NCBI GenBank assembly: GCA_013141415.1
Contig: JABFQY010000003.1
Location: forward strand, 395,729-459,728
DNA length: 64,000 nt
Direction: 5' to 3'
Source: Kiritimatiellaceae bacterium
GTDB taxonomy: Bacteria > Verrucomicrobiota > Kiritimatiellia > Kiritimatiellales > Tichowtungiaceae
The notes below the pieces were generated by a model, which saw only the letters and a program-made list of their open reading frames with translations, ran no database searches and was not told the origin of the DNA. This document shows positions 31,982-49,230 of this stretch, piece after piece; position 1 is the first letter of the stretch, and the number at the start of each line of letters is the position of its first letter. The translations under genes were made by a program, and so were the position numbers.

Positions 31982-32764
31982 TTAGCGACGCATGCGACGG
32001 ATCAACATCACCGCCAGCGCACCAACGCCCAGCATTCCGATGGTGGCCGGTTCAGGAACCGCGTCCAGACTGAAGTTGTCAAACGTGGCAAGACCGGAAG
32101 TGGCATACATGCCGCCCAGCCCGTCCTGAAGCTTCTTGAATGTTCCACCTACCGTGACATTATTGGTTGTATAAGCCATTGTGCTAGTCGTCTTATCAAA
32201 GACGCTGATATTAAATATGTACGGATCGACGGAAGAGACCGTGTAGGTGTACACGTGATTCGAGACATACGACACTGCACCGGCTTTGTTTACAATCGAA
32301 CCGGCCTGTTGAACGAAATTTGAAAAGACTAGAAACTGAGCTGCACCGTTCCCTCCAACGCGGAATAAATAGTAACTGCCATTTTCCGCGCCGCCATCCT
32401 GATAGTTAAAAACTAATCCGGCATAGGATGTCGAGTTAGTCGAGTATTGGTTAATATCAGCGGACAGTGTGAAGTTTGTTGCAGCTCCGGCATTAATGGT
32501 ACCTGCAGCGGTATTGAGCAACATCGCCTTGGTAAGAAGGGGTGCCGAAACGACGCCCATATCCACTTCGTTATTAAAAATACGATATTGCGTGTTGGTA
32601 TCATCCGTTCTGGCCGTCTTCCAGTTTGATCCGATGCTCACGGCGATCTGCGCATTATTGGTCGCAAACGTCGTGTTCGCACGGTTGAAGTTATCCGTTA
32701 TCAAAACGGCCTGAGCGGCACTGCATACCATACCCATCATCAATGTTATAATTATCTTTTTCAT
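31982..32764 (-). CDS. Secreted PEP-CTERM protein made of one repeated beta-sandwich module
   Basis: A 260-residue protein with a signal peptide (KKIIITLMMGMVCSAAQA), a central module of about 205 residues and a classic sorting tail: VPEPATIGMLG, a hydrophobic helix and RRMRR. The tail is recognised by exosortase in the inner membrane, which is not in this window. The module starts ITDNFNRANTTFAT and holds AQIAVSIGSNWKTART, YAGLVFNYQDGG and SLD. The same module occurs in four other proteins here. AGGAAGG is upstream, a candidate operator lies about 100 bp before the start, and a strong terminator follows. It probably binds surface glycans or belongs to the extracellular matrix; that is inferred. 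Confidence 0.88.
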   Translation of the reverse strand: MKKIIITLMMGMVCSAAQAVLITDNFNRANTTFATNNAQIAVSIGSNWKTARTDDTNTQYRIFNNEVDMGVVSAPLLTKAMLLNTAAGTINAGAATNFTLSADINQYSTNSTSYAGLVFNYQDGGAENGSYYLFRVGGNGAAQFLVFSNFVQQAGSIVNKAGAVSYVSNHVYTYTVSSVDPYIFNISVFDKTTSTMAYTTNNVTVGGTFKKLQDGLGGMYATSGLATFDNFSLDAVPEPATIGMLGVGALAVMLIRRMRR

Positions 32765-32860
32765 CTTTATTCCTTCCTGCTGTTTACTAACTACGATTCG
32801 TTACTCCTTCTTCACATCTTCTGTTTACAACGTATCGCTTGGAACATTTCCCCGCCACGG

Positions 32861-32897
32861 TCTTTTGCGTATTGTTTTTAATGTTTTCCAAACACCA
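32861..32897 (-). promoter_or_regulatory. Candidate XylR-type operator B, upstream of PEP-CTERM gene
   Basis: Read on the minus strand it has GTTTGGAAAACATTAAA, then four bases, then ATACGC. It shares cores CATTAAA and ATACG, at the same spacing, with sites C to F. It begins about 99 bp upstream of the start at 32764. Confidence 0.6.
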
Positions 32898-32918
32898 GAG
32901 TTACCGAGAAAAATGAGA

Positions 32919-35120
32919 TTAATTACCGGCGGCAGTCCGTAGCGGCTCACATACGATGTCATCAAAATACGCAACGCCACAGGTTGAATAGACGCCACCG
33001 CACCCATCAACATAGCTGTGCTGAGCATCCGCAACCTCTTGAGCAAAGAGAACCTCTCCGCTTTCTGCATTTTCAATCGTCAGCTTGAACGCGTAAGGTG
33101 CCACCGACCGGATTGTCAGCTTATAGGATGTTCCTGCAACCTGCTTGAATGCATTTGCCTTGTTAAAAACCAGCTCCTTGCTGTTCTGGCGTAAAAACTG
33201 AACTCTTCCATCGCCGCTGAAACGAAAAACATACTGCTTTTCGCTGTCCTGATAATTACAGCACAGGCCGGCAAACGCACTCGCACTCTCCGTTTTGAGC
33301 ATCACAGTTCCGGAAAGCTTAAATCCGGCTTTGTCCGTATTTTTGGTAACCATGGCTGCATGATAAAGAACCGGGAATGGCGGTGTTGCAGAGCCCTGTG
33401 TGTTTAGCCGGTTTTCCGTAATTCTCCATTTACTGCCAGCGTCGGTTTTCCACCCTTCACCAAGCTGTTCCGATGCTTCTTTTCCGACGAAAGCGGTAGA
33501 TTTGCGGTCAAAATGGTCGGTTACGGTTCCAGCCGCCACCGGGGTGTCTGTCACGGCGGAGGCCGGACGTTCCGCAGTTTTCTTCGGCTGCCCGCCCCGC
33601 TGAATCATCAATGGACTTTCTGCATCGAACTGCTTGCGCAGGTCTTTTACGACGGGTTCATATTCGGGATTCGAAATCAGATTGCGGGTTTCGTGCGCAT
33701 CCTTTTCGTAGTCGTAGAGTTCTTCGGCAATGGTGTCTCCGGTAGGATTAAGCCAACGGACATACCGGTAGCGGTCGGTGCGCATGGAGTATCCGGCATT
33801 CGGATGCTGCCAGTTGCGCCGGTTCATGGTGAATGCGGCGGTTTTCCATGGCTGATCTGGTTTGATCAGCAATGGCATCAGGCTCTTTCCGTCACACTGC
33901 GGAGGAATCGCAAGTCCCGCCAAGTCGCAAAGCGTGGGGAAAATATCCACCAGCTCGACCAGCCGGTCAGTCCGCTCTGGAGTCAACGACGGAGCACAAA
34001 CGATCAGCGGGCAGCGGGCCGCGGCCTCATAATCGGTATCTTTTCCAATGATGCCGTTGTCGCCAAGGTGGAATCCATTGTCGCCCCACAGAACAATCAC
34101 CGTATTGCTCTCCATACCGAGCGTCGTCAGCTCATTCAGAACCTTTCCGACTTGCGCATCGATAAACGAGCAGGCCGCGTAATAGCCGTGCGTTATACGT
34201 CGCCGGACTTCATCAGGAATCGGGCCGCTTTTGGGAAGATCGCTGTATGTGCGCGCTTCAAAGGAATCGTGTGCGGCATAGGCTGGCGCGCCCTGCGGGA
34301 ACGACATATTTTCCGGAACAGGCAGCTGCTCCGGATCATACAAGTCCCAGTATTTTTTGGGAACAATCAGCGGCAGGTGCGGCTTCAGGAATCCGACGGC
34401 CAGAAAAAACGGTTCTTCCGAACCTTGGAACCCGCGCAACACGCCGATCGCTTTGGAGGCCAGTTCACCGTCGGGATAGCCTGCTTCATCCGCGTCCGCC
34501 GCTTCACTGAATGGTCCAACAGTATAAACGTACTTCTGGTGTTCTGTGAATTTTTCGCCCGCCGCCTCGCGGGCCGCGATCCCCGCCTGCCGTTTTTTCT
34601 GATCCTCAATATTCTGAGGAAGGAAATAACCCCGGCCCGGAATGTTTTCCCAGCGGCTCCACGAGGCGGGATCGGTGTTGGCCATGTGATGAAAAATCTT
34701 GCCCATGCCGACCGTCTGGTATCCGTTTTCGCGAAAGTACTGCGGCAAGGAAACCGTATCCGGAACCGTCTGCCGGAAATTCAGCACATTATCCTGCACC
34801 TTACTGTGTTCAGGATACATTCCCGAAAGAACGCTCGCCCGGGACGGGCCGCAAACCGCGAACTGACAGTATGCGCGCCGGAATAAAACACCCTGTCCGG
34901 CCAACCGGTCGATGTTCGGTGTTTTCATCTGTGCGTTACCGTAGCAGCCCAGCTGCGGACGCAGGTCATCCACCGCTATGAATAAAATATTCGGGCGAAC
35001 CGTTTCTGCCGCCGGTGCAAGACTGGCGGTTAATGCAGAAAACCGGAGCGCATTGAAAAGCAGCTTCCGGTGTGGCTTATGCCTTCGCACGAAAGCTTCG
35101 GAATCCTGTTTTCTCTTCAC
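32919..35120 (-). CDS. Iduronate-2-sulfatase-like S1 sulfatase with C-terminal beta-sandwich module
   Basis: A 733-residue protein. An N-terminal signal with paired Arg (FVRRHKPHRKLLFNALRF, then SALTASLAPAAE) could be read by Sec or Tat. The sulfatase part (about 42-510) has ILFIAVDDLRPQLGCYGN, maturation site CGPSRASVLSG with Cys at about residue 90, GKIFHH, and LWGDNGFHLGD, the iduronate-2-sulfatase-like pattern. Residues about 535-725 are the window's repeated module, nearest to the free-standing protein at 40240-40911. A GTG at 35120 with AAAGGAAG upstream is the likely start; the ATG seven codons earlier has no ribosome site. It follows a secreted protein gene by 26 bp. Confidence 0.87.
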   Translation of the reverse strand: MKRKQDSEAFVRRHKPHRKLLFNALRFSALTASLAPAAETVRPNILFIAVDDLRPQLGCYGNAQMKTPNIDRLAGQGVLFRRAYCQFAVCGPSRASVLSGMYPEHSKVQDNVLNFRQTVPDTVSLPQYFRENGYQTVGMGKIFHHMANTDPASWSRWENIPGRGYFLPQNIEDQKKRQAGIAAREAAGEKFTEHQKYVYTVGPFSEAADADEAGYPDGELASKAIGVLRGFQGSEEPFFLAVGFLKPHLPLIVPKKYWDLYDPEQLPVPENMSFPQGAPAYAAHDSFEARTYSDLPKSGPIPDEVRRRITHGYYAACSFIDAQVGKVLNELTTLGMESNTVIVLWGDNGFHLGDNGIIGKDTDYEAAARCPLIVCAPSLTPERTDRLVELVDIFPTLCDLAGLAIPPQCDGKSLMPLLIKPDQPWKTAAFTMNRRNWQHPNAGYSMRTDRYRYVRWLNPTGDTIAEELYDYEKDAHETRNLISNPEYEPVVKDLRKQFDAESPLMIQRGGQPKKTAERPASAVTDTPVAAGTVTDHFDRKSTAFVGKEASEQLGEGWKTDAGSKWRITENRLNTQGSATPPFPVLYHAAMVTKNTDKAGFKLSGTVMLKTESASAFAGLCCNYQDSEKQYVFRFSGDGRVQFLRQNSKELVFNKANAFKQVAGTSYKLTIRSVAPYAFKLTIENAESGEVLFAQEVADAQHSYVDGCGGVYSTCGVAYFDDIVCEPLRTAAGN

Positions 35121-35146
35121 TATCTTCCTTTCAGTAAACATACGAA

Positions 35147-36226
35147 TTAGTACGAAGTGTACACGTTAAAATTATCTCCGATATAGGACATCGAAAACAC
35201 AGGCTCAGAAGCGATGGGGATACGCGTTGCTTCAACGCCGACGCAGGCCTCTTTCAGCACATAGTTGTTTTGATCGGTGGAATAGTTTGTCGCGCCCATT
35301 TCGTAGGTGTTCAGATAGTTATTAACGTCCGTGATCAGATTGGCCAACTGGGTGCGCGACACCGAATAGGCAAAATACGCTTTATTGGTCGACATCACGG
35401 TTATCTGACTGTTCGACGACGTCGCCAGTTTGGTGCAGTACTTAGTTCCCGGCCCGAAATGCGTCACTCCGCACATCTCACCTGTGGGAACACGAACAAC
35501 TCTTTCTCTTGAGATTCCTGCACCAATAGTCTGGGTGCCGTCATACGTCTTGAAACCACGCGTATCAAAAACCTGCGTAATTAATGTCAGCATCTGGCCG
35601 GTCGAAACATCCTGAAACAGCATCGTAATCACAGACCAGCCTACCGGACCTACCGTTGGAGAACTGCCGCCGCCGTCATACTTGGTCACGGCGATATTCG
35701 CAGCAACGACAAGGCTGGCCGAAGAGCTGTATCCAGAACTAAACACCGCAGGCGGAGTCGAAGGACTATAGCTGTACCGCAAGGTCATCCGATCACCGCT
35801 TCCCGTCCATTCCGTACTCTTCATATAGCCGCCCCAGTTCTTCCCTGAAGCTTGCAAAGCGGTTTTGTCGGTGCCGACTGCATTGTTCTCACAAACCTGA
35901 GTCTTCGTCTGCCAGTAAGGGCTGGGAGGATTGTATCCGGTTTTCTGCCAAACCGGCCAGCCAGCCACAACCTTCGGTACATTTCCTAAGTTGAAGGCAC
36001 AGAAGTTATACTGATCTTTGGGCGCACCTGGAGTGTACGCGGTTCCAATATGGGTAACTGTATCGCCGTAAAAAGCTGATTCCGTAAGGTTAGTGATCCC
36101 TGCGGTATCCCGGGTGTGGAGATATTGAGCCGCGTAACAAGACACACCGGAAAAACTGAACGCCATAATGGATGCGGTAAAAAACAGCGGAACAGCCAAA
36201 ACAAACGGCAATTTATTTTTTCTCAT
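35147..36226 (-). CDS. Secreted protein of unknown function
   Basis: A 359-residue protein with signal peptide (RKNKLPFVLAVPLFFTASIMAF, then SFSGVSCYAAQ). The mature part is rich in Thr, Ser, Tyr and Gly with several Cys (CAFNLGN, TQVCENNAVG, GEMCGVTHFGPGTKYC, KEACVG). It resembles no family I can name; the composition suggests a beta-rich extracellular protein, perhaps a lyase-like jelly roll or a binding protein. The start at 36226 has GGAGGGG five bases upstream; a longer open frame to 36322 lacks this. It is the first gene of a unit with the iduronate-2-sulfatase-like enzyme and carries operator C about 93-132 bp upstream. Confidence 0.7.
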   Translation of the reverse strand: MRKNKLPFVLAVPLFFTASIMAFSFSGVSCYAAQYLHTRDTAGITNLTESAFYGDTVTHIGTAYTPGAPKDQYNFCAFNLGNVPKVVAGWPVWQKTGYNPPSPYWQTKTQVCENNAVGTDKTALQASGKNWGGYMKSTEWTGSGDRMTLRYSYSPSTPPAVFSSGYSSSASLVVAANIAVTKYDGGGSSPTVGPVGWSVITMLFQDVSTGQMLTLITQVFDTRGFKTYDGTQTIGAGISRERVVRVPTGEMCGVTHFGPGTKYCTKLATSSNSQITVMSTNKAYFAYSVSRTQLANLITDVNNYLNTYEMGATNYSTDQNNYVLKEACVGVEATRIPIASEPVFSMSYIGDNFNVYTSY

Positions 36227-36318
36227 AATTCCCCTCCTGTTACGGTTATTTTCACATCCTGCATGGACTCCCTTGCCCCGCATTGTGACTGGAAAATAAA
36301 CCGGCGAGACGGGTTTCA

Positions 36319-36358
36319 CCATATCGGTTTCCGTATAATTATTAATGAATTCAACACC
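36319..36358 (-). promoter_or_regulatory. Candidate XylR-type operator C, upstream of secreted protein and sulfatase unit
   Basis: On the minus strand it has GTTGAATTCATTAA, six bases, then ATACGGAAACC followed by GATATGG. The stretch ATACGGAAACCnATATGG is shared with operator F, 14 kb away. It sits 93-132 bp upstream of the start at 36226. Confidence 0.6.
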
Positions 36359-36370
36359 TTGGAAACCACT

Positions 36371-36402
36371 GGAACAAAAAAGCCACCAAAAAAAGGTGGC
36401 TT
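36371..36402 (-). terminator. Rho-independent terminator
   Basis: AAGCCACC (36380-36387) and GGTGGCTT (36395-36402) form an 8-bp stem with a 7-base A-rich loop. On the minus strand the stem is followed by TTTTTTG. It lies about 40 bp after the stop at 36443 and ends the transcript of the esterase and module genes. Confidence 0.85.
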
Positions 36403-36442
36403 AATCTGTCCGCAACGCCGGACGGAGTGAATTGATAACGCT

Positions 36443-37201
36443 CTAATTCGAAATAAGATACAGTCCAAGCGTCCGGATCTGGATCGTCATATCCAGACTG
36501 AAGTTGTCGAACGTGGTAAGTCCGGAAGTGCCATACATGCCGCCAATCCCGTCCTGAAGCTTCTTGAAGGTGCCGCCTACGGTAAGATTGTTGGTTGTAT
36601 AAACCGTCGTGCTGGTCGTCTTATCGACGACACTGCAATTATATACGTATGGACTGACTGAGGCGACCGTGTAGGTATACACATGATTCGAGACATATGA
36701 AAACGCACCGACTTTGTTCAAAACCGAACCGGCCTGCTGAGTGAAATTCGAATAGACCAAAAACTGAGCGGTACCGTTCCCTCCAATGCGGAATAAATAG
36801 TAACTGCCATTGTCCGCGCCGCCATCCTGATAGTTTAAAACCAATCCGCCATAGGATGTCGCGTTAGCTGAGTATTGGTTAATATCAGCGGACAGCGTGA
36901 AGTTCGTCCCTGTTCCGGCATTCAGGGTGGCCGCCGTCGTATTGAGAAGCATAGCCTTGGTAAGAAGGTTTGGCGCAACGGTACCCATATCCACTTCGTT
37001 ATTAAAAATGCGGTATTGTGTGTTGGTACCACTGGCATCATCCGTTCTTGCCGTCTTCCAGTTCGATCCGATGCTCACGGCGATCTGCGCATTATTGGTC
37101 GCAAACGCCGTGTTTGCGCGGTTGAAATCGTCGGTAACTGTCAATGCTTGAGTCGCGCAACAAAGCATCGTTGATATCAAAATCATTGTCACAAGCTTCA
37201 T
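36443..37201 (-). CDS. Secreted beta-sandwich module protein, paralog without PEP-CTERM tail
   Basis: A 252-residue protein with signal peptide (KLVTMILISTMLCCATQA) and the same module as the PEP-CTERM protein at 31982-32764, to which it is very close over about 210 residues (AQIAVSIGSNWKTARTDD, ATSYGGLVLNYQDGGADN, GGTFKKLQDGIGGMYG). After FDNFSLD the sorting tail is replaced by MTIQIRTLGLYLISN. The other frames in this stretch give no PEP motif, so this is not a simple frameshift. The ATG at 37201 is chosen because AAGGAG lies six bases upstream. It follows the acetylesterase gene by 21 bp and is ended by a terminator. Confidence 0.82.
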   Translation of the reverse strand: MKLVTMILISTMLCCATQALTVTDDFNRANTAFATNNAQIAVSIGSNWKTARTDDASGTNTQYRIFNNEVDMGTVAPNLLTKAMLLNTTAATLNAGTGTNFTLSADINQYSANATSYGGLVLNYQDGGADNGSYYLFRIGGNGTAQFLVYSNFTQQAGSVLNKVGAFSYVSNHVYTYTVASVSPYVYNCSVVDKTTSTTVYTTNNLTVGGTFKKLQDGIGGMYGTSGLTTFDNFSLDMTIQIRTLGLYLISN

Positions 37202-37222
37202 ATTCATCTCCTTTATTGTCCG

Positions 37223-40162
37223 TTATTGAGCTTCAGAAGGCGTCATTTTAACGCGGTAAAATCGATTTGAGAATCCATTTCTCTCCGAAACGATATTCTT
37301 CCATGACCCATCGCCGGTCATATTGTAAAAAACAGGCACCCAAGCTGAGTCCTTGAGATTATCCGTTGTTTCCAGCCGATAGCGGCGCCCCGTTGCAGAT
37401 GGAAAGCCAATCTGTACAGTGGTTCCGGCCCCATTCAGCAGACCGACCCGGAAAACCGACCCGCCATTCAACGGAGCAGTGCCTGCCAGATATTCCTGCA
37501 AATTGTTAGCACCGTCGCCATCTGGATCAGCTCCGGACGCCGACTCACTGTTGGTGGTTGTTCCATCGCCGCCAAAAGACGCGGCCCTCCAGCTATCCGG
37601 AACTCCATCGCCGATGCTGTCTATCGTCCGGTAAACGGCGGTTACCGTTACGTTTTGCGTTGGCATACCCAATGTAGTGACGGGTGCAGAGGCATCAACC
37701 AACTGCTGGGTTGAACCTGACCAGTGATCAAAAACCTGACCGGACGGCGCGGGATTTGCCTCGATCATAAGAATCGATCCGGCCTGCGAGGTGCCGCTGC
37801 CATAGCCGTTGTTGACCGTCAAAACGTATGTCGCATCGTTTGTGTTACGGTAGGTGGCAAGCAGATAAAGGGCATGATCCGGCATGGTGACGGTTGCGTT
37901 GGACGCATTCGGATTATTAATTTCTGATGCCGCACCGATCCAGCGGTCAAACACTTTGCCAGTAGCCGGCGCATTGGCTGTAATAAGTTGTGTCGCGCCG
38001 GGAACCAGTTTAGTCGCGCTGCCGCTGCCGGACAGAATATCCAGCCGGTACGCCTCATCGGTATAAAAAGGCACTGCGGGCAGTCCGGCTGCGTTGTAAA
38101 GCTTGTTGGATCCGGAAGGTGCGGCGGCGTAGCAGTAGCGGACATACACCGGTGAGGCCACCGTCGAATTAGAAACGACCACAGTATCTGCCTCGATGAC
38201 TGCCGTGGCATTCGTGAATACCTTATCGGCTCCCGCAATTTCAAAATTCTCCAGCGGCCCGCTCACCGTTACGACCGGATTTGTGCTGGCTTTGAATCCG
38301 GTAATCAACCCGGGCTCTGCGCAGTCAAACACCACCCGGATGGACGATCCCTCCTGTAGTAACCGCTGATAAATCGGTCCGCTATAAACAACACTCTGGT
38401 TAAACTCTTTTTTCAGAGCCCACTGCGCCAGACGAAAACCTACATCCTGTTTGTTGAAAGGATGAATATTCACTGCACCGTCGTTTCCAGTATCAATCGT
38501 TACGGCCATACCGGTATTTGTTTCAGAAAGAAATCTCCGCTGCGCAGAACGCATACCCGGCCAGTCAACACCCGTCGTCCATGTTGAAAGCTGGACATAA
38601 TAAAACGGGAAATCACCCTGCCCCCAAGCCTGCCGCCAGCCGCGCACCAAGGCCATCATTTTAAAGCGATAGAAATCAGCTTCGCTGCTGTTTGCTTCGC
38701 CTTGATACCAAATGGCTCCGCGAACGCCGTAAGGAATCAGCGGAGCAATCATGGCGTTGTAGATGTCGTGGAATCCGGTCAGTCCGCCTTGTCCCAAATT
38801 CTGTCGAAGGCCGGCAACTTCCGGAACCATTGTCAACCCGTCGGGAGCAATGAACCGCTCGATTTTTTGTCCGCCCCATGCACAGGCCAGCAGTCCAACC
38901 GGCACTCCTGTATTCAGATACATGCTGCGCGCAAAAAAGTATCCGACAGCCGAAAAATCAGAAACTGTGGCCGGACTGCAAAGCCTCCACCCATATTGAA
39001 TGATTGGCTCGTCCAGTTTCGTGACAACGGCATTCGTTCGTACTTGGAGATACCGGATCAGCGGGTAGTTGGCCGCAGCAACCTCCTCGGCTCTGGCGGT
39101 TATGCCCCCGCTTATAGGCAGATACATGTTGGACTGGCCAGAGGCCAGATATACGTCGCCAAAAAGAACATCACTAAACAGAATATCCCGCTCACCCGGT
39201 GACGAAATCCTCAGCGTATGCGACTGTCCGCCGTCATGAGCATGAGAACCAATCCAAGCCTGCCAGCGTCCGGTTTGATCCGCCGTGGCGGTGCCGACTT
39301 CGACGTCATCCAGCTGAACGGTCACAACGGCTCCAGACGCGGCGAGACCCCAAACAGGAACATTCATATCCCTTTGTAACACCATGTGATCCTGAAATAA
39401 CGAATGGGCGAAAAGCTGGACATTGGCCAGCGGCGCGGTGATTTCCGCCCACGTTGCAGCGGTTCGTATATTGTCAATGGTGGCTTGATCGTCTGATCCT
39501 GCCGGACGGAAGTCGCCGGTCGCCTGAATACGCAATTTGCCGACTGAGGCGAGCTTAACGGAAACTCCGGACAACGATGGATTGGTTTCCGAAAAGCTGT
39601 TTGAACCGGTCAGGTCGTACCATGCATCCATTTTCCCGGCGCCGGTATCAATCCGCATGATGACTGAAACGGCACCGGTTAAGGAGATACTCCCAGCCAT
39701 CAGTGTTTCGGTGAGTCCGTCCGGCGCAGAAACTCCGTTTTGGTCATGGAAAAATATACCGGCGACATTGGTTCCTGTTTCATCCAGAAAAGCCATACCC
39801 AAAAGGGCTCCACTGTCATTTCTGTAATCAGACAGATCGTAGTTGAAATCATACCGCAGGTACTGAATGCCCGATAGCGGGTGAGCCGCAACGGCATCCA
39901 GTATGGTTCCGTCGGTCCACATTCCGCCGCTTCCGGCAACACTGCCGACGCTTACCAGTCCGCCGACCCCGTCCGCCGCCAATACACCCAGCCCGCCGGA
40001 TGAAAACTGTGCGGACTCGGTGCCTGAATTAATGGCTTCAGACAGTGTCTTCCCGGCGGGATCCACCTCAAAAGTCCACTCATTCAGAGAACCGGACGCA
40101 ACAACTGCCGCCCCTCCAGTCAGAAGATAGAACAAGGATAAAATGGCAACATGATTTTTCAT
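37223..40162 (-). CDS. Multi-domain secreted sialate O-acetylesterase-like enzyme
   Basis: A 979-residue protein: signal peptide (KNHVAILSLFYLLTGGAAVV), an N-terminal LamG-like beta-sandwich (about 25-240), and an SGNH-type acetylesterase domain (about 250-690) with ASGQSNMYLP (nucleophile Ser), GAIWYQGEANS and INIHPFNKQD carrying the Asp/His region. Two Listeria-type B repeats follow (about 695-835; KVFDRWIGA and QVFDHWSGS), then a Ca-binding DPDGDGANNLQEYLAG segment and a final beta domain with GRRYRLETTDNL. AGAGGA lies before the ATG; the TTG one codon earlier is not needed. It removes acetyl groups from polysaccharide outside the cell. It is a distant paralog of the esterase at 56939-58459. 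Confidence 0.87.
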   Translation of the reverse strand: MKNHVAILSLFYLLTGGAAVVASGSLNEWTFEVDPAGKTLSEAINSGTESAQFSSGGLGVLAADGVGGLVSVGSVAGSGGMWTDGTILDAVAAHPLSGIQYLRYDFNYDLSDYRNDSGALLGMAFLDETGTNVAGIFFHDQNGVSAPDGLTETLMAGSISLTGAVSVIMRIDTGAGKMDAWYDLTGSNSFSETNPSLSGVSVKLASVGKLRIQATGDFRPAGSDDQATIDNIRTAATWAEITAPLANVQLFAHSLFQDHMVLQRDMNVPVWGLAASGAVVTVQLDDVEVGTATADQTGRWQAWIGSHAHDGGQSHTLRISSPGERDILFSDVLFGDVYLASGQSNMYLPISGGITARAEEVAAANYPLIRYLQVRTNAVVTKLDEPIIQYGWRLCSPATVSDFSAVGYFFARSMYLNTGVPVGLLACAWGGQKIERFIAPDGLTMVPEVAGLRQNLGQGGLTGFHDIYNAMIAPLIPYGVRGAIWYQGEANSSEADFYRFKMMALVRGWRQAWGQGDFPFYYVQLSTWTTGVDWPGMRSAQRRFLSETNTGMAVTIDTGNDGAVNIHPFNKQDVGFRLAQWALKKEFNQSVVYSGPIYQRLLQEGSSIRVVFDCAEPGLITGFKASTNPVVTVSGPLENFEIAGADKVFTNATAVIEADTVVVSNSTVASPVYVRYCYAAAPSGSNKLYNAAGLPAVPFYTDEAYRLDILSGSGSATKLVPGATQLITANAPATGKVFDRWIGAASEINNPNASNATVTMPDHALYLLATYRNTNDATYVLTVNNGYGSGTSQAGSILMIEANPAPSGQVFDHWSGSTQQLVDASAPVTTLGMPTQNVTVTAVYRTIDSIGDGVPDSWRAASFGGDGTTTNSESASGADPDGDGANNLQEYLAGTAPLNGGSVFRVGLLNGAGTTVQIGFPSATGRRYRLETTDNLKDSAWVPVFYNMTGDGSWKNIVSERNGFSNRFYRVKMTPSEAQ

Positions 40163-40239
40163 CAAATTCCTCTGGAATAATATCTACACGAACCAACCCA
40201 ATCGACCATCAACCGCCGAATGGGAATCGATTCCTCAGT

Positions 40240-40911
40240 CTAAATTACGGGTTTTACTTCAATTATCTCGAATGAGATGTCATCAAAAATCGCCGCCCCG
40301 CAGGAGGAGTAAAATCCGCCGTAGCCATCGGTATAGACTTTCTTATTGTCGGTAACCTCTTGCGAAAAAACGGTTTCGCCGGTACCGGCATTTTGGATGG
40401 TTAGTTTGAAAGCATACGGCTTTTCACACAGCACGGTCAGACGATACGCAGTACCCGGCACATGCTTAAACGCATCAACCTTGTTGAGTACAGCGTCGGC
40501 GCTGTTTTTACGGAGAAACTGTACAAGCCCCGCTGCACTGTAACGAAAAACGTACTGTTCGTTGCTGTTTTGATAGTTGCAAACGAGTCCGGCTAACGCC
40601 GTTCTGTTCTCTGTTTTCATCGTAACAGTTCCGGAAAGCATAAACCCACTGCCATTCCCGGGCTTAGTGACCATCGCTGTATTGTAAATAATCGGCTTTG
40701 GAATTTCTGCGGGAACTTTGGAGGTCAACTGCTGGTTCAGAATGCGCCACGCTCCTCCCGGCGATTCGGTTTTCCAGCCTTCGCCGATCTGTGCCGCTTC
40801 ATCCTGAGTGACAAATGGTGTGGACGTCCGGTTGAAGTCATCACTAAACTGCGCCGCTGAAACACAAGCAGCTACTAAAACAACAGATAAACATAATATC
40901 TTCGTTCTCAC
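40240..40911 (-). CDS. Secreted single-module beta-sandwich protein
   Basis: A 223-residue protein: signal peptide (RTKILCLSVVLVAACVSAA), then one copy of the shared module (FSDDFNRTSTPFVT, AAQIGEGWKTES, ALAGLVCNYQNSNEQYVFRY, IFDDISFEI). It is closest to the C-terminal domain of the sulfatase at 32919-35120, sharing for instance GEGWKT, NTDKAG/GNGSGF-FxLSGTV and NYQxSxxQYVFR. The start is a GTG at 40911 with GGGAGG upstream. It is the first gene of a unit with the large acetylesterase and carries operator D 83-117 bp upstream. No sorting tail is present. A glycan-binding role is plausible; not shown. Confidence 0.8.
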   Translation of the reverse strand: MRTKILCLSVVLVAACVSAAQFSDDFNRTSTPFVTQDEAAQIGEGWKTESPGGAWRILNQQLTSKVPAEIPKPIIYNTAMVTKPGNGSGFMLSGTVTMKTENRTALAGLVCNYQNSNEQYVFRYSAAGLVQFLRKNSADAVLNKVDAFKHVPGTAYRLTVLCEKPYAFKLTIQNAGTGETVFSQEVTDNKKVYTDGYGGFYSSCGAAIFDDISFEIIEVKPVI

Positions 40912-40993
40912 TTTAACCTCCCGTGATGTTTGATTTAAATTTAAAATTCGAGTCTCTGTATATTGTCACTTCCCCACTGATGACGACTACGTG

Positions 40994-41028
40994 ATTTCTC
41001 GTATATAATTTAATGATTTCCAAACAGG
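40994..41028 (-). promoter_or_regulatory. Candidate XylR-type operator D
   Basis: On the minus strand it has GTTTGGAAATCATTAAA, then four bases, then ATACGAGAAA. It lies 83-117 bp upstream of the GTG at 40911 and matches sites B, C, E and F in both core elements and their spacing. Confidence 0.6.
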
Positions 41029-41057
41029 CTCCATCCTATTGCTTTTATTTTAAGTGA

Positions 41058-42308
41058 TTACGACCCATTGCACTCACGAACAGCGTTCAGCATGGCAATG
41101 ATATTTTCCAACGGGGTTTTCGCCTGTACGTTATGAATGGCATCGAAAATAAAACCGCCGTCCCGCGAAAATATTTTGCAGCGCTCCAAAACCTGCGCGC
41201 GAACTTCTGCCGGCGTTCCGAAGGGCAGCACATGCTGAGTATCCACGCCGCCGCCCCAGAAGACGAGCTTGTCGCCGTAACGATCTTTAAGTGTCTGAGG
41301 ATCCATGCCGGTGGCGGAACATTGCACCGGATTGATGATATCGAATCCGGCATCAATGAAGCGCTCCATGAAATTTTCGACCGCGCCGCAGGAATGTTTA
41401 AAGGTTTTCCAGTTGGTGTTGGCGTGAATCCAGTCGTTCATGCGGCGGTAATACGGCAACCACAGCTCATCAAAAGCCGCCGGAGAACAGAATGAGCCGG
41501 TCTGGGTTCCAAAGTCCGTGCCGCACATAAAAATCACATCCATCAAACCGTCCAGTACCGGCGCGGCGCGTTTCAGATTTTCCAGCGCAATATCCGTCTG
41601 CCGGTTGAACACCTCGTGTACGTAATCCTGCCGCGCAGCGGTGGAAATATACCATTCCGAAATATCACGGATTCCTTTCGGTGCTTTGAGAAACGGCGCC
41701 GGAACCAGCGCGATGTCGCCAAGAGCTGTTCCGCCGATTCCACCAACCACGGCGCGGCCAGTCGCGGCGGATTTTTCAGCGGCGGTTTTAAGTGTGAAGA
41801 TCTGTTTATCCGTGAGCAGAGTAAACTCTTCAAGGTTGTCATCAGGATTCAAGTTGTCGTCATCAATTTCCGGCTGGCGGATAATGCTGTCAAAAAAGTA
41901 TCCGCCGTTCGGCAAATGGCCGGACGGCCCGGCCGACCGGTCGCCCTGCGGATAGATATAGAGCCCCTTTTCGTTCTGCGTTACCTGAAAGCCGCCGGGA
42001 ACCAGCACCTCCTGCCCCCATGGCGTCCGCCACTCTTTCCAGTCGGTGGCAGGAAAGCCAAATAACGTCGAAAGGGACTCCATGCCGACGACATCGACAC
42101 CGATTGCATCAAGCAAATCATCCTCGATCAGGCCGAGCATTTGACAGGGCTCATGAATTTTGACCGGCTGTTTTTTCAATCCGTAGTAGTCCCGCAACTC
42201 CGCCACGCAGGTACAGTGCATTCCGGTTACTGCCGTTGAACCGAAGTCCACCGATACGGGCCCGTTTTCGTGATTCAGAGCTTTGAGTACTTTTTCGCGC
42301 GATGTCAT
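41058..42308 (-). CDS. Uroporphyrinogen-decarboxylase-superfamily protein (URO-D paralog 3)
   Basis: A 416-residue TIM-barrel protein, longer than paralogs 1 and 2. It opens TSREKVLKALNHE, the usual start of the MtaA/CmuA-type group, and has VDVVGMESLSTLFGFP, MCGTDFGTQTGSFCSPAAF, the zinc-type motif FKHSCGAVENFM near residue 310 and VFWGGGVDTQHVLPFGTP. AAAGGAAG precedes the ATG. It is the last gene in the unit that starts with the GH65 fusion and includes two large secreted proteins. The function is unknown; the conserved His-x-Cys-Gly favours a zinc methyltransferase or a related reaction over porphyrin decarboxylation. Confidence 0.78.
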   Translation of the reverse strand: MTSREKVLKALNHENGPVSVDFGSTAVTGMHCTCVAELRDYYGLKKQPVKIHEPCQMLGLIEDDLLDAIGVDVVGMESLSTLFGFPATDWKEWRTPWGQEVLVPGGFQVTQNEKGLYIYPQGDRSAGPSGHLPNGGYFFDSIIRQPEIDDDNLNPDDNLEEFTLLTDKQIFTLKTAAEKSAATGRAVVGGIGGTALGDIALVPAPFLKAPKGIRDISEWYISTAARQDYVHEVFNRQTDIALENLKRAAPVLDGLMDVIFMCGTDFGTQTGSFCSPAAFDELWLPYYRRMNDWIHANTNWKTFKHSCGAVENFMERFIDAGFDIINPVQCSATGMDPQTLKDRYGDKLVFWGGGVDTQHVLPFGTPAEVRAQVLERCKIFSRDGGFIFDAIHNVQAKTPLENIIAMLNAVRECNGS

Positions 42309-42376
42309 CTTTTTCTTCCTTTAATTAAATTATTTTTTACAGATCAGCTGCCACCCAATACGGTTTTCAGCCGCCG

Positions 42377-44713
42377 TTACAACCCGGGTTCCGCATCCAA
42401 AACAAAGTTGTCAAACGAAGCAAGACCGGACGTGGCGTACATTCCGCCCAGTCCGTCCTGATGCTTAACTACATTGGCGGCCAACGTAATATTTTTCGAA
42501 TAAACGGTGGTGCTGCTCACCGTGTCGAAGATGTTGATATCAAAGGTATACGGGTCGGCTGAGGCGACAGTAATCGTATACGGACGGTTCTGGACAGCGG
42601 TAAAAGCCCCCACTGTATTGATCGGGCTCGCCTGCTGAACGCCATTTGAATAGCAGAGCATCTGCACGGTTCCGTTTCCAGCCGCACGGAATAAATAGTA
42701 ATTACCCGCATCCTGATAATTAAAAACTAAACCCATAAAGGCGGTCGAAAGAGAAGAATCTTGCTGCAACGTGGCAGACAGCGTGAAGTTGGTTCCCGCC
42801 CCGGCATTCAAAGTACCCGTAGCCGTATTGATCAGCATCGCTTTTGTAATGAGTGCTGGCGAAACGATACCGATATCCACTTGGTTATTATAAATGCGGT
42901 ATTGCGTGGCTTCATCCGCCGAATTTCCGCGCTTCCAGTTTGTACCGATCTGTGCGGCAATTTGCACGTCATTGGTCGCCCATGTACCCTGATTTGCACC
43001 GGTAAAACTGTCCGTTACCACTGAGGTCTGAGAGGTACTGTCGGATTGATTATAGAACATCACATGATCCAGCTCGAACGCTCCGTTAGTCGAATTCAGC
43101 AAACTGAGTTGCAACTGCCTCACCACGCCGCTCCAGTTGGTAAATGAAGTCGCCATATTAATTTCATACGTTTGGAAAGCCGTATCATTTGATGAAATTG
43201 CAAAGCTTTTCGAGTTGGTGACGCTGTCTGTATAAAAGCGAACCGTCAGGTATTTAGTGTCACTTTGATTCTTCATCCGGACAGAAAGACACGGATAGTT
43301 GGAGGCCTCCATAAACATCGGCGTCCAGGAACTGGTAATAATGTAATTGGGCCAGTTCGTAAACGTTGAGCGTAAAACGCCGTTGGTTATCTCCAAAGAA
43401 GTCACATTCCCGCCGGGCCGCCATGCAATTCCGGGCGAAAAATTATTAAAATTCCAGCCGTATGTACGGGCTGCGTTATCGACTCTGGCGCTAACTCGGT
43501 AAAAATCGGCTTGTGAGACCCCGGTCGGTATAAACGTGTTATAGGAAGGGTTCCCAGTTTGGTTGGTATAAATATCGGCCCAGCTGTTGGCTAGCAAGTT
43601 GGAAGTCCACTGCACACGGTAACGCCGCCCCCAGTCACCTGACCAGAACAGGGAACGATCCGGTAAATCTGAAAGATATAATCCTTCCAAAACATCCTTC
43701 GGGTCTGTTCCGGCCACGAATTCATTATAATCGGTCAGCCCATCAGAATCATAATCGGAAGTGTTGCTGGCTGTGTCCAACGAGCTGAACTGTTCATATT
43801 CCCATGAATCTTCCATGCCGTCGTTGTCGGAATCATATCCGTTGGCATGAATGTCATAAAAAGCCTGACGAATGGCAACGTCTGTTCCGATTGCCAAAAA
43901 TGTGTCGTATTCCACTGAACAACCAGCGGTTAATGTAAATTGCCGGGTCGGTGCAAAATAGGAACAGCTGGGAGCAGACGGGCCGGTTGCCGATCCGGCG
44001 TTATATCGGTACGCAACCATTTTCCATGAATCAGGCGTGTAAATTCCTATCCCTGACCGGGACGCCGTATTCACATAGGCGGCCCAGTGCTCCGTCCGGT
44101 CATGATATTCTAAGGCCGGTGGATTGGCCGGGGCCACTGTAACGCTCGTCAGAGCTTCGTTTTCCCACGGATGAGCTCCTTCGTAAAAAACCAGATCGGC
44201 CAAAGCATAATCGACAAAAACGGCAGGCATTTCCTGTGACTTAAACGTGACCTGTGAACTGCCGGAATATTTCATCCGGTTATGGATATGAGCCATATTC
44301 CCCTTGAGCGTAATCCACTCCTCCATTTCCACTTCAGGAAGCGAAGCCCCCGTCGCCCAATGACAGGGACGGATCTTGGCATAAATACGGCCCCCGGAGT
44401 TGGTAAAGGCCAGCAAGGTCGCCGGCCACTGATTGAGATATCCGCCACCTTGCACCGGATTGTACGCCCAGTCCTGCCCTGCCCAGGAAGAGCCGTCGCT
44501 GTCACCGTAATAGGATTGCTGAATAAACCGTCCGTTGTCGTAATTATTCAGCAGATTGGCTCCACTGGATAATGAGAAATATCCGATGCAAGCACCGCGA
44601 TCCTTATCTACACCAATTTGAACGGTTCCGTTCGTCAGATACGACCAAGTGACCGCCGACGTGTCCATCACGCAACACACACAACAAAAAATCAATACCG
44701 ACAGACTTCTCAT
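42377..44713 (-). CDS. Large secreted multi-domain protein ending in the shared beta-sandwich module
   Basis: A 778-residue protein: signal peptide (RSLSVLIFCCVCCVMDTSA), an N-terminal domain to about residue 285 of unknown type (VDKDRGACIGYFSLSSGANL; MEEWITLKGNMAHIHNRM), two Ca-binding thrombospondin-3-like segments (DSDNDGMEDSWEY, DYDSDGLTDYNEF, about 290-335), a middle beta domain with RRYRVQWTSNLL, a carbohydrate-binding-like sandwich (about 430-560) and the shared module (about 570-775: VTDSFTGANQGTWAT, AAQIGTNWKRGN, GLVFNYQDAGNYYLFRAAGN). No sorting tail follows. The N-terminal domain recalls proteins that bind or cut polysaccharides, but I cannot name its family. It lies between a URO-D gene and another unknown secreted protein. 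Confidence 0.75.
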   Translation of the reverse strand: MRSLSVLIFCCVCCVMDTSAVTWSYLTNGTVQIGVDKDRGACIGYFSLSSGANLLNNYDNGRFIQQSYYGDSDGSSWAGQDWAYNPVQGGGYLNQWPATLLAFTNSGGRIYAKIRPCHWATGASLPEVEMEEWITLKGNMAHIHNRMKYSGSSQVTFKSQEMPAVFVDYALADLVFYEGAHPWENEALTSVTVAPANPPALEYHDRTEHWAAYVNTASRSGIGIYTPDSWKMVAYRYNAGSATGPSAPSCSYFAPTRQFTLTAGCSVEYDTFLAIGTDVAIRQAFYDIHANGYDSDNDGMEDSWEYEQFSSLDTASNTSDYDSDGLTDYNEFVAGTDPKDVLEGLYLSDLPDRSLFWSGDWGRRYRVQWTSNLLANSWADIYTNQTGNPSYNTFIPTGVSQADFYRVSARVDNAARTYGWNFNNFSPGIAWRPGGNVTSLEITNGVLRSTFTNWPNYIITSSWTPMFMEASNYPCLSVRMKNQSDTKYLTVRFYTDSVTNSKSFAISSNDTAFQTYEINMATSFTNWSGVVRQLQLSLLNSTNGAFELDHVMFYNQSDSTSQTSVVTDSFTGANQGTWATNDVQIAAQIGTNWKRGNSADEATQYRIYNNQVDIGIVSPALITKAMLINTATGTLNAGAGTNFTLSATLQQDSSLSTAFMGLVFNYQDAGNYYLFRAAGNGTVQMLCYSNGVQQASPINTVGAFTAVQNRPYTITVASADPYTFDINIFDTVSSTTVYSKNITLAANVVKHQDGLGGMYATSGLASFDNFVLDAEPGL

Positions 44714-44738: not shown

Positions 44739-46403
44739 TTACGACCCCGGCATCACGAGCACACGGAAAAACCCGCTTCCTGACCGATTCGTCTGCGCGA
44801 TGGAATACTGCATAACCGAATCATCCGGCTGCATTGATGAAAAGCCCGGCACATCCGTCCAGACCGCGTTCACCAGCGTCGTCGAAGTTTGCATCGTGTA
44901 CATTTCATACGGTCGACTCTTCCAGAAAATCGTATCTGGCGCTCCACCCAAAGCCAAGGTCAGCGACGGCGCATTGGTGGCAGAAACCGAATCCGTTACC
45001 GGGCGGATATAATCCACGCCGACGGAATGGCCGTCGCCATAAAGCACCGGATCAAAGCGCAACTGGATGATTTCGCCCGACCAGTTGGTGTTGCCGCTCA
45101 CGTCGAATAGATATTCCTTCCATCCGCCGCCAGCGGCAACGGCCAGCGATACGGATCGGTCGTCGCTGAATTCAGCGTCTCCGCTTCGTTTCCAGTAAAG
45201 CTGTGCGATGCTGGCGGCAACAGGATTCCCCGCGTTAGCCGTCCGGATCAGAATCCGCTGGTATAATGAAGCATTCAGCCTCATCGGCGGGCCGATTAAT
45301 TGAGGATCATTGGTCGCCGCCGTCAGCACCCAGGTTCCGTTCGTTGCTCCGGGAGCACCTTGATCCGTCAGATTGGTATAACCCCATCCATCCGCTTCAC
45401 CGGAGGTATTGAATTCATACGGTCTGGCAAAATTCAGCCCGTAGGCCTGCAATCCGAAATTCCTGACCTGCATCGCAACACGGCTTAATCCGGGAACTTC
45501 CCAGCCCATGTTCATACCGCCGATTTTGTAATCGGCGTAGTTAAACGAATTGGTCAAATACCCGAGCGCCCACGCTTCCTGCAATCCGGCCTTGATGTGT
45601 GGCAGAATGTCTCCGGTAACTCTTTTCCATTCTCCGGTTCGGAGCCCGGTCGTGCAGAACGGAGCGATACCAATGTTATACATCAGCTTGCCGGTACCCG
45701 CCGTCACCCCGTCACCATCCTGTGCCACAGCGAGTCCGGGAAGAGGATATCGGTCATCATACAGCGCCAATCCGAACCAGTAATAATTCCCGTAATCCGC
45801 GGTTTTCGGATTGGTCTGTAAATTTTGAACCGTGAAATAAATTAAAAAATGTGCGGCATGAAGACCGGAGGAATATCCGTTGGTGTAAATGTTCTGCGCA
45901 TATAAAAGGCGGGCTTCAATGTCGATGATCAGCTCATTCAGGTCGGCAATAGACGGAGCATAGTTTTTGAACCACCCCTGCGGGTTGCTAATCCGCTGAG
46001 AAATCAAAAATGCAGGCCAGGATTCTCCACTTTTCCGGTACACTCCGCCGTACTCATTGACGGAATCAACAGCCAGAATCAGATCTCCATCTACGCTGTC
46101 TTGCGGACCTAACGCCACGGTCTTGAAGGAATTGCTCCACTGTATCGACCCGGAAGCAAGAGCCGCCGGGGACACTCCATAAATTGACTGCGTACTCCCC
46201 CACTGCGCCAGTCTCCACCATGTCTCACCATACGGTTGTTTATGCTGAATAAGCCCCTCATCCGCACCGCCAACCGGCGCAAGAATGATCACACCGTCTT
46301 GAAAATGCCGGTCAGCGATCAGTTGAACCGCCGAAGCGGACAATCCAACAATCATCCAGCCGGTCAGCCAAGCAGCCCGCAGAAAGCTGTGGTTCATTTT
46401 CAT
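44739..46403 (-). CDS. Secreted protein of unknown function
   Basis: A 554-residue protein: signal peptide (NHSFLRAAWLTGWMIVGLSASA), a first domain to about residue 320 with many Trp/Tyr and acidic positions (YGETWWRLAQWG, GLHAAHFLIYFTVQNLQ, GNYYWFGLALYDDRYP), then a carbohydrate-binding-like sandwich (about 325-470) and a short C-terminal beta repeat resembling the RRYRLETT-type ends of neighbouring secreted proteins (YEMYTMQTSTTL). The start at 46403 is chosen because AGGA lies seven bases upstream; a GTG two codons earlier is possible. It starts 26 bp after the GH65 fusion gene. I do not recognise the family; Asp and Glu in the first domain would allow a glycosidase. Confidence 0.68.
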   Translation of the reverse strand: MKMNHSFLRAAWLTGWMIVGLSASAVQLIADRHFQDGVIILAPVGGADEGLIQHKQPYGETWWRLAQWGSTQSIYGVSPAALASGSIQWSNSFKTVALGPQDSVDGDLILAVDSVNEYGGVYRKSGESWPAFLISQRISNPQGWFKNYAPSIADLNELIIDIEARLLYAQNIYTNGYSSGLHAAHFLIYFTVQNLQTNPKTADYGNYYWFGLALYDDRYPLPGLAVAQDGDGVTAGTGKLMYNIGIAPFCTTGLRTGEWKRVTGDILPHIKAGLQEAWALGYLTNSFNYADYKIGGMNMGWEVPGLSRVAMQVRNFGLQAYGLNFARPYEFNTSGEADGWGYTNLTDQGAPGATNGTWVLTAATNDPQLIGPPMRLNASLYQRILIRTANAGNPVAASIAQLYWKRSGDAEFSDDRSVSLAVAAGGGWKEYLFDVSGNTNWSGEIIQLRFDPVLYGDGHSVGVDYIRPVTDSVSATNAPSLTLALGGAPDTIFWKSRPYEMYTMQTSTTLVNAVWTDVPGFSSMQPDDSVMQYSIAQTNRSGSGFFRVLVMPGS

Positions 46404-46428
46404 TACCACATCCTGTCACGATCATGCC

Positions 46429-49230
46429 TTACACAAGCACAGCTACATCAAATGAGGAATAGTCCGTCAAACAAAGATTCGCCGCGCCAAGACGCTCCTG
46501 CGGTCCGACACCGACACATTTCATGCCGGCGGCCAATGCCGCCGCGACGCCGGACTCCGCATCTTCAAAAACTACACACTCTTCCGGACTTAGGCCGATC
46601 CGCCCTGCACCGGTCAGAAAAATTTCCGGATGGGGTTTCGGGTTTTCAATGTCATTTCCGCCAATCACCGCATCGAAATATTTGCTGAGATCCAGCGCAT
46701 CGAGAACCGTCTGCGCATTTTTACTTGAAGAACAGATCGCCAGCTTCAGCCCGTCCTGCTTAAGCTTCTTCAGCAAATCAATCACGCCGGGATAAAGATC
46801 CCCGTCATTGATATCCATCAGCAGTTTTTTGTAGTACTCGTTTTTTACATCGGCCAGCTGCTCTTTTTCCTTCAGCGGCATATCCACCTTATTATGATCC
46901 AGAATAACCTGAAGCGATGCGAGGCGCGGCACACCGCGACAGCCGTCATTGATCTCTTCATCAAAGGCCCAGCCTTTTTCATCCGCCAGCTTTTTCCAGC
47001 CCAGATAATGATATTTGTCCGTAAACACCACCACTCCATCGAGATCAAACAGCACACCTTTAATCTCCGGCGGCGGCGTCACCGTTGCTTGTCCGTCAGC
47101 AACCTTGACGCGCAATGTCTCGCCACGGAAAGAAAGGTTAAACGAGAGTGATTTCCAGTTTTCCGGCAGGTGCGGATTAAAGCGCAGGGTATCGCCATGC
47201 AGTTCAAGTCCGGCAAACCCATAGACCAACGCCTGCCACAATCCGCCAAAATTGCCGATATGAATCCCTGCATAGGTGTCTTTGTTGTAATCAACAAAAT
47301 CAAAATTGGCAGAGAGATCAAAATAGTGCATCGCACGATCCAGCATTCCCAGCTTTGCCGCGACCAGCGCATGGATTGAAGGGCTGAGCGAAGAGCCGTG
47401 CAGGATAAACCGCTCGTAATAGTCCCAGTTTGCCTGCAAATGCTTACGCTCAAACTTCTCCGGCATCAGCGTCAGCAACAGAATCACATCGGGCTGCTTC
47501 ATCCCCTTGCACTCATGATACTCAGCACCGGGACCGCCCCACTCGCCGCCGGTCACATTCCAAGTGTCTTTCAAATCATAAAAACCGTCACACTGCGGAA
47601 TCAGTCCGGTCTTTTCATCCACCGGACAGTACATTTTCTCTGAGATCTCCAGCCATTTTTTTGCTTCCACCGGATGGTCGTTCAGCTTGGCGGCTCGGCA
47701 CAGAACATACGCAGTCAGATAATTGGTGTAGGCATTGTTATCGGTCACCGGATGATATTCGTCCGGCCCGCCGACCCCATGAATTTCATAACGATCCTCG
47801 GCTGCATTAAAAATCACGCGCTCTGCCATGTAGCGAGCGCATTCGGTCACCACCTCTTTGCCTTTGGTTTCCAACCATTGGAAATCGCCGGAAATATCAG
47901 CATAACGCAATGCACAGTACGCCACATCGACCGTCACATGAATCTGGGTGCGGCTGCAGGTGATGGCGACCGGTGCATGCTCAAACCCTTCGATAGAGGT
48001 TTGCCACGGATAACGTGCGCCGGGACGCCCTTCCGATTTCGCATAGGCCTTGGCTCCGTCCAGCATCCGGCGGCGGTAACGGCAGTGCGCCCCCCCCCAT
48101 GCTGGAAAAACCCACTGATAAAACGGCGCAAGATTGATGTCGGTATCCCAGAAAACATGCCCGCTGTACCCTTGGCCGCTTAACGCTTTGGCGCCGATAC
48201 TGACACGCGAGTCGGTCTGCGGCGATGCGATGATCAGATGGAACAGTGCAAACCGTATCCGCTGCTGTGCTTTTACATCGCCTTCAATCTGAATATCCGC
48301 CTGCTCCCATAATTTTTCCCACGCTCTGGAACTTTCGGCATGACAGACATCAAACCCGGCCTCAGCACTCTTTTGAGCGAGTTCCACCGCAGACTGCTCA
48401 GGGTTTTCATCCTGTGTTGAATAGAGGGTGCTGAATTTTTCAAGCGTCAGCGTTTCGCCCTGCTTTACTTGAATCACGGCAATTTTTTTGTACCGGCGCA
48501 ACTGCAGTTCATTTTCCCAGACATTGAAAAGCTTTCCGTTCACCGACAGCCGGTTTTCCAAACATTGGAAAACGTCCGTACCACTACTAACGACCACTGA
48601 CTTCATCAATAGGCCGGACGATGAATTCTGAAGAACCGACTCGACGTATTCGATATTCAGCGATGCATCAATGCCGCTTTCAATCCGTACTTCGCCTGAC
48701 CAGTTCTCCGGAGTAATGCTGATTTCCTGAGCGATCAGATGCCGCTGAGCCATGCTGCAAAAACGGCGGAAATGAAGCGAGGTGATCTTCCCTTCGCCAT
48801 TGTCCCAGCGAACTGTGCGATGCAACGTTCCTGTTTTTAAATCAAGCGTTCGGTTGTATTCCAGCAAGGAGCCGTCCCACATGCGAAACGGTTTACCGTC
48901 AATCCAGATTTTGCAATAGAGCGGATCCGGCAGATTCTGGATGAGATAAATCTCTTCTGGTGTCGGCATCAGCTCTTCGTTAAAAATATATTTTTTACGG
49001 CAGAAGGTGTCCGCTGTGCAGAATTGTCTTTCAATCGACTTCCGGAATACCCCTGCGGCAAAGAGCCCCTGAACCTCTTTAGTTCCCAGCTCTTCATAAC
49101 TGCCGCGCAGTCCCATCAAACCATTGCCGATGCAAAACTGAGTTCCACCAACCCGTTCATTAGCCGGGTGATAGACAGATTCGCAAATGAGCCACTCCGC
49201 CCCGCCATTTCTCTCAATCATACGCGCCAT
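46429..49230 (-). CDS. GH65 disaccharide phosphorylase fused to beta-phosphoglucomutase
   Basis: A 933-residue fusion. Residues 1-715 are a GH65 phosphorylase: ERVGGTQFCIGNGLMGLRGSYEE at the start, GHVFWDTDINLAPFYQW near residue 365, GVGGPDEYHPVTDNN with the catalytic Glu near residue 488, and a C-terminal jelly roll ending before EIKGVLF. Residues 722-933 are a HAD-family beta-phosphoglucomutase: GVLFDLDGVVVFTDKYHYL (nucleophile Asp), LAICSSSKNA, NPKPHPEIFL and VFEDAESGVAAALAAGM. It would split an alpha-linked glucose disaccharide with phosphate to beta-glucose 1-phosphate and convert that to glucose 6-phosphate, in the cytoplasm. The ATG follows AAAGGA. It opens a four-gene unit and has operator E just upstream. 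Confidence 0.9.
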   Translation of the reverse strand: MARMIERNGGAEWLICESVYHPANERVGGTQFCIGNGLMGLRGSYEELGTKEVQGLFAAGVFRKSIERQFCTADTFCRKKYIFNEELMPTPEEIYLIQNLPDPLYCKIWIDGKPFRMWDGSLLEYNRTLDLKTGTLHRTVRWDNGEGKITSLHFRRFCSMAQRHLIAQEISITPENWSGEVRIESGIDASLNIEYVESVLQNSSSGLLMKSVVVSSGTDVFQCLENRLSVNGKLFNVWENELQLRRYKKIAVIQVKQGETLTLEKFSTLYSTQDENPEQSAVELAQKSAEAGFDVCHAESSRAWEKLWEQADIQIEGDVKAQQRIRFALFHLIIASPQTDSRVSIGAKALSGQGYSGHVFWDTDINLAPFYQWVFPAWGGAHCRYRRRMLDGAKAYAKSEGRPGARYPWQTSIEGFEHAPVAITCSRTQIHVTVDVAYCALRYADISGDFQWLETKGKEVVTECARYMAERVIFNAAEDRYEIHGVGGPDEYHPVTDNNAYTNYLTAYVLCRAAKLNDHPVEAKKWLEISEKMYCPVDEKTGLIPQCDGFYDLKDTWNVTGGEWGGPGAEYHECKGMKQPDVILLLTLMPEKFERKHLQANWDYYERFILHGSSLSPSIHALVAAKLGMLDRAMHYFDLSANFDFVDYNKDTYAGIHIGNFGGLWQALVYGFAGLELHGDTLRFNPHLPENWKSLSFNLSFRGETLRVKVADGQATVTPPPEIKGVLFDLDGVVVFTDKYHYLGWKKLADEKGWAFDEEINDGCRGVPRLASLQVILDHNKVDMPLKEKEQLADVKNEYYKKLLMDINDGDLYPGVIDLLKKLKQDGLKLAICSSSKNAQTVLDALDLSKYFDAVIGGNDIENPKPHPEIFLTGAGRIGLSPEECVVFEDAESGVAAALAAGMKCVGVGPQERLGAANLCLTDYSSFDVAVLV

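Follow-up and report, generated by a model that had tools for sequence, protein, structure and literature searches.

Sulfatase repertoires are very large in Kiritimatiellales (a congener of the bacterium considered here has 138 sulfatases), yet the way in which these enzymes are directed to their substrates is poorly described. In the 2.2 Mb genome of a Kiritimatiellaceae bacterium (G000), five minus-strand genes, one of them encoding a sulfatase, specify proteins that share a module, and the locus raises the questions of what this module is, how it reached its different carriers and what it does there. The window referred to below is the whole stretch of 64,000 nucleotides that was analysed around these genes.

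Module copies, their carriers and their distribution

The first-pass annotation had proposed one module common to five proteins, divided into two subtypes, and both proposals were borne out. The five open reading frames are present, with ends identical to or within a few codons of those first given, and their modules (195-218 residues, 30-81% identity) aligned end to end with 37 columns invariant in 5/5 and pairwise E values of 1e-23 or better. Copies A (32057-32707), C (36488-37144) and E (42389-43027) formed subtype 1 in a maximum-likelihood tree, and copies B (32940-33530) and D (40261-40854) formed subtype 2, all on the minus strand. BLASTp comparisons gave 1e-124 for A-C, 1e-81 for A-E and 1e-77 for B-D, against 1e-23 to 1e-30 for pairs from different subtypes, and every match with reversed-sequence controls was 1e-3 or worse.

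Proteins A, C and D are secreted and have one module each, secretion signals having been called by inspection. Protein A (31982-32764) consists of a signal peptide, the module and a PEP-CTERM tail, whereas a Pfam scan found no PEP-CTERM in protein C (36443-37207; signal peptide and module) or protein D (40240-40911; the module being the whole mature protein), neither of which had any Pfam match. D might be a lipoprotein, since its signal peptide includes VAAC, which could be a lipobox. Surface attachment by PEP-CTERM, as first suggested, is supported for copy A, whose motif scored 24.1 bits against a Pfam cut-off of 20.7 and whose genome encodes an exosortase (PF09721, E 3.5e-50, at G000:C1:30037). 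The module thus resembles PEP-CTERM/exosortase surface proteins in copy A and some relatives and differs from them in that most module proteins are without the motif. A literature search combining PEP-CTERM, Kiritimatiell* and polysaccharide returned no paper.

Protein B (32919-35120) is an S1 sulfatase (Pfam Sulfatase, 2e-44) of the Cys type (CGPSR motif) with a C-terminal module; its PDB neighbours are arylsulfatase 6hhm (3e-85) and iduronate-2-sulfatases (about 2e-62), and judging by these nearest solved structures it is of an iduronate-2-sulfatase-like kind. Protein E (42377-44713, 778 residues) comprises an N-terminal region, a TSP3-like repeat, a second region and the C-terminal module; both regions belong to no assigned family, and a single-sequence fold of the whole protein reached a pLDDT of only 30.7.

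Two genes without the module stand among these five, also on the minus strand. The protein at 37223-40165 is a SASA-type carbohydrate esterase with a TSP3-like tail, and SASA homologues of it that do carry the module occur in this and related genomes. The protein at 35147-36322, between B and C, has no Pfam match and is homologous (BLASTP E 1e-13) to the non-module part of a fusion protein at G000:C3:375204-376622; we call this part domain X. Four copies of domain X were found in this genome, all in the module cluster (the window copy and C3:373439-374413, 375204-375965 and 377012-377860, one of them fused to the module), and none in 57 relatives by genome search. The position of this gene and the fusion of its homologue hint at a fusion-linkage between domain X and the module. 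The proteins at 35147-36322 and 44739-46409 were suspected to be homologous, which comparison did not support (E 0.87). A recurrent C-terminal unit, in which a TSP3-like DxDxDG stretch is followed by about 90 residues that close with a hydrophobic F-[IY]-R-[LV] strand, was seen at 37223-40165, 42377-44713 and 44739-46409 and in many relatives; it may be a tail for sorting or anchoring that is common in Kiritimatiellales.

A profile search with the five modules located seven copies in the genome, all within about 70 kb (C3:368672 to C3:438752). The two additional copies lie 20-27 kb upstream of the window, one at the C-terminus of a SASA esterase (C3:368672) and the other at the N-terminus of a 523-residue protein whose remainder is domain X (C3:376041). 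Within the order, 7/43 genomes had a module match, strong in this genome, G009, G019, G033, G035 and G036 and weak and partial in G012 (E 8e-8). Across the phylum, with at most eight candidates scored per genome, 29/388 genomes were matched at E <= 0.001, mostly weakly and partially; the strong matches outside the order were five proteins from G265, G347 and G089. All five have one module, which in four of them is joined to a PEP-CTERM-like tail (two tails above the Pfam cut-off, two recognized by reading the sequence) and in the fifth has no tail. A profile search of contigs found no relatives with the five window modules and five loci with a broader alignment, and a plasmid search did not find the module.

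The resulting set comprised 41 module copies in 31 proteins. Seven proteins have two or three modules followed by a TSP3-like tail, three carry PEP-CTERM (one of them narrowly missing the Pfam cut-off), three consist of one module only, one more such protein is cut by a contig end, and three have unassigned parts. Sulfatase parts are found in four (two with the module N-terminal, two C-terminal), SASA in four, BNR_4 in two, GH42-like parts in two, FG-GAP/ASPIC in one and domain X in one, so that 12/31 carry sulfatase, SASA, BNR_4 or GH42-like parts.

Predicted fold and nearest families

The beta-sandwich fold first suggested for the module was supported by structure prediction: the AlphaFold2 model of module D (chain 40273-40857, 19 sequences) is all-beta, with a pLDDT of 91.8 and a pTM of 0.89. 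The best PDB match in a Foldseek search was CBM66 of the SacC levanase (E 1.3e-6; TM 0.62 by query, 0.74 by target), followed by thrombospondin C-terminal domains, galactocerebrosidase, legume lectins, galectins and BoGH43B. There were 54 PDB matches at E <= 0.001; the leading ones belong mostly to the concanavalin A-like lectin/glucanase superfamily, and on this basis and that of the model the module is assigned the two-sheet jelly-roll fold. Apart from CBM66, most of the top matches are lectins that bind carbohydrate or lectin-like parts of glycosidases. When a profile of the 41 modules was compared with PDB sequences, BoGH43B (3.6e-4) and CBM66 (about 4e-3, over 89 positions only) were retrieved.

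A profile search had been proposed as the way to find out whether the module equals a known family, and its outcome was divided. No Pfam or NCBIfam model matched the copies in the window, which fall short of the gathering cut-off of GH43_C2 (PF17851; 22.7 bits) and were not accepted as members, whereas some relatives exceed it (for example L041:6884-8710, with 38.2 bits) and 11/41 module members matched that family at E < 0.01. Membership of TSP_C (PF05735) was likewise rejected, since the best relative reached 23.8 bits against a cut-off of 25.6. Structure and sequence profiles agree, and the module is therefore, according to the predicted model, a concanavalin A-like beta-sandwich nearest to CBM66 and GH43_C2. 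In all probability this is a carbohydrate-binding domain that has yet to be classified and not something categorically new.

The module shares with CBM66 (Bacillus subtilis SacC levanase; 4b1m/4b1l/4azz) its fold, a weak profile match over the central strands and its attachment to secreted carbohydrate enzymes, and differs in being about 30 residues longer with about 16% identity, in being borne by sulfatases, esterases and PEP-CTERM tails, and in having no evidence pointing to fructan. CBM66 members themselves differ in ligand, some binding fructan ends and others trimmed xanthan side chains (PMC11002231). With GH43_C2 (BoGH43B, 5joz), which is the best Pfam family for 11/41 members and the best PDB sequence match, the module contrasts in standing at either end of its carriers and in having no GH43 partner among the 31 proteins. 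TSP_C has the same fold, and the module is often found near TSP3-like calcium repeats; unlike TSP_C, the module stays below the Pfam cut-off throughout and the TSP3-then-lectin order is reversed in the tandem module proteins, so the likeness in layout to thrombospondin is probably convergent.

Duplication and shuffling

It had first been suggested that the module spread by local duplication, which accounts for A and C and plausibly for B and D, and is incomplete as a description of the family. Copies A and C pair in the tree (98/95), and their DNA is 84.6% identical from residue 26 to the FSLD end with no detectable similarity outside the module, so the duplicated unit was the module; by sequence the two are recent paralogues. 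The values computed for this pair (dN 0.10, dS 0.47, dN/dS 0.22) indicate that A and C are under purifying selection. Copy E joins A/C together with the two modules of one G036 protein (100/99), its nearest neighbours in the tree being those of this two-module FG-GAP/ASPIC protein from another genus and family, and B and D join a sulfatase-borne module of G009, from another species (100/99). The copies in the window therefore represent two or more lineages of a larger family that has been shuffled.

The sulfatase and the module of protein B have separate histories, as their closest relatives differ: the catalytic part is 43% identical to a Pontiellaceae B12227 sulfatase with an N-terminal module and only 23% identical to the sulfatase of G009, a non-orthologue that carries the module clustering with B's. 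This discordance, and the restriction of A/C DNA similarity to the module, argue for real domain shuffling.

Proposed function

The fold, with CBM66 as the top match, and the recurrent fusion to carbohydrate enzymes favour glycan binding, and we give a rough probability of 0.65 to the reading that the module is a putative non-catalytic glycan-binding domain. As a CBM66-type domain, it would tether secreted sulfatases, esterases, lyase-like propellers and glycosidases to one shared polysaccharide, and the module alone would act as a lectin, either secreted or anchored by PEP-CTERM, that keeps this polysaccharide close to the cell. The conserved polar residues are D6, R105, Q113, Y138 and D192, with N94 and Q96 frequent (model numbering); judging from strand alternation, N94, Q96 and R105 may perhaps lie on one sheet face.

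Concanavalin A-like domains are partly structural in GH43 enzymes (GH43_C2) and in thrombospondin, and the fold is thus no proof of sugar binding. The main rival is a structural or protein-protein module that binds no glycan and stabilises or oligomerises its partner, as GH43_C2 shapes its own enzyme, or builds a matrix with TSP3-like tails and PEP-CTERM, comparable to TSP_C in adhesion. GH43_C2 and TSP_C are among the nearest families, the seven tandem-module proteins end in TSP3-like tails and four of the five strong copies outside the order join a PEP-CTERM-like tail and no enzyme, all of which suit this role; on the other side, the module has moved from one terminus to the other and from enzyme to unrelated enzyme, which is hard to reconcile with a domain packed on one catalytic domain, and a true carbohydrate-binding module is the best structural match. 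We regard a purely structural role as unlikely, with about one chance in four. That the free-standing copies are themselves enzymes (a polysaccharide lyase or glycosidase of this fold, such as PL7, PL36 or GH16) is much less credible: many such enzymes exist among concanavalin A-like folds, and alginate lyase Aly36B and Cip1 appear at Foldseek ranks 41 and 42, but no His or Glu is conserved across the 41 copies (His in at most 6/41 and Glu in at most 15/41 at any position), the GH16 acidic motif and PL7-type QIH are absent, and the modules are fused to existing enzymes of differing chemistry. The notion that the copies arose by local duplication and do little, whether retained or in decay within a cluster that expanded recently, could appeal to the recent paralogy of A and C and the absence of a PEP-CTERM tail from C, and is scarcely tenable given the dN/dS of 0.22, the intact state of every frame and the conservation of residues over 41 copies from three genera.

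For the glycan-binding reading, the surrounding genes bear on the ligand. Eight or more sulfatase genes lie in or beside the 70 kb cluster (33 in the genome), and the cluster and surrounding window also hold SASA esterases, GH141-, GH116-, GH78-, GH65- and GH42-like genes, transporters for sugars, and an aldolase accompanied by an isomerase of the fucose/arabinose type (a weak match). From these neighbours we infer that the ligand is probably a sulfated fucose- or rhamnose-containing polymer. The two module subtypes may differ in ligand. In the same cluster, CBM96 occurs on a GDSL esterase and a GH141-like protein and an F5/8 type C domain on another protein, so appended binding modules are usual here. 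Among other genes, 46429-49230 encodes a GH65 phosphorylase-family enzyme fused to a HAD (beta-phosphoglucomutase-like) part in one protein of 933 residues; URO-D family proteins are encoded inside this polysaccharide cluster at 25479-26510 and 41058-42308 (Pfam), and the ORF at 26704-27699 resembles them by appearance.

Against the glycan-binding reading stand the small share of sulfatases among the module proteins (4/31) and the patchy occurrence of the module in the order (7/43 genomes). Many genomes that lack it have numerous sulfatases, so sulfatase function does not depend on it. We also dropped the idea that module presence follows sulfatase number, because sulfatases abound throughout the order whether or not the module is there, and the connection to sulfation thus rests on the fusions and the gene context.

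More tentatively, and with somewhat less than even odds, the module may found a new Verrucomicrobiota carbohydrate-binding family, used as an interchangeable address tag for sulfated polysaccharide at either end of an enzyme, with the PEP-CTERM version holding the same polymer at the cell surface. If so, sulfatases, esterases, lyases and glycosidases and the cell itself would meet on one ligand. Since the module is small, free-standing in A, C and D and also present on sulfatases, it offers a directly testable handle on substrate identity, and its ligand would point to the polysaccharide degraded by the whole 70 kb cluster.
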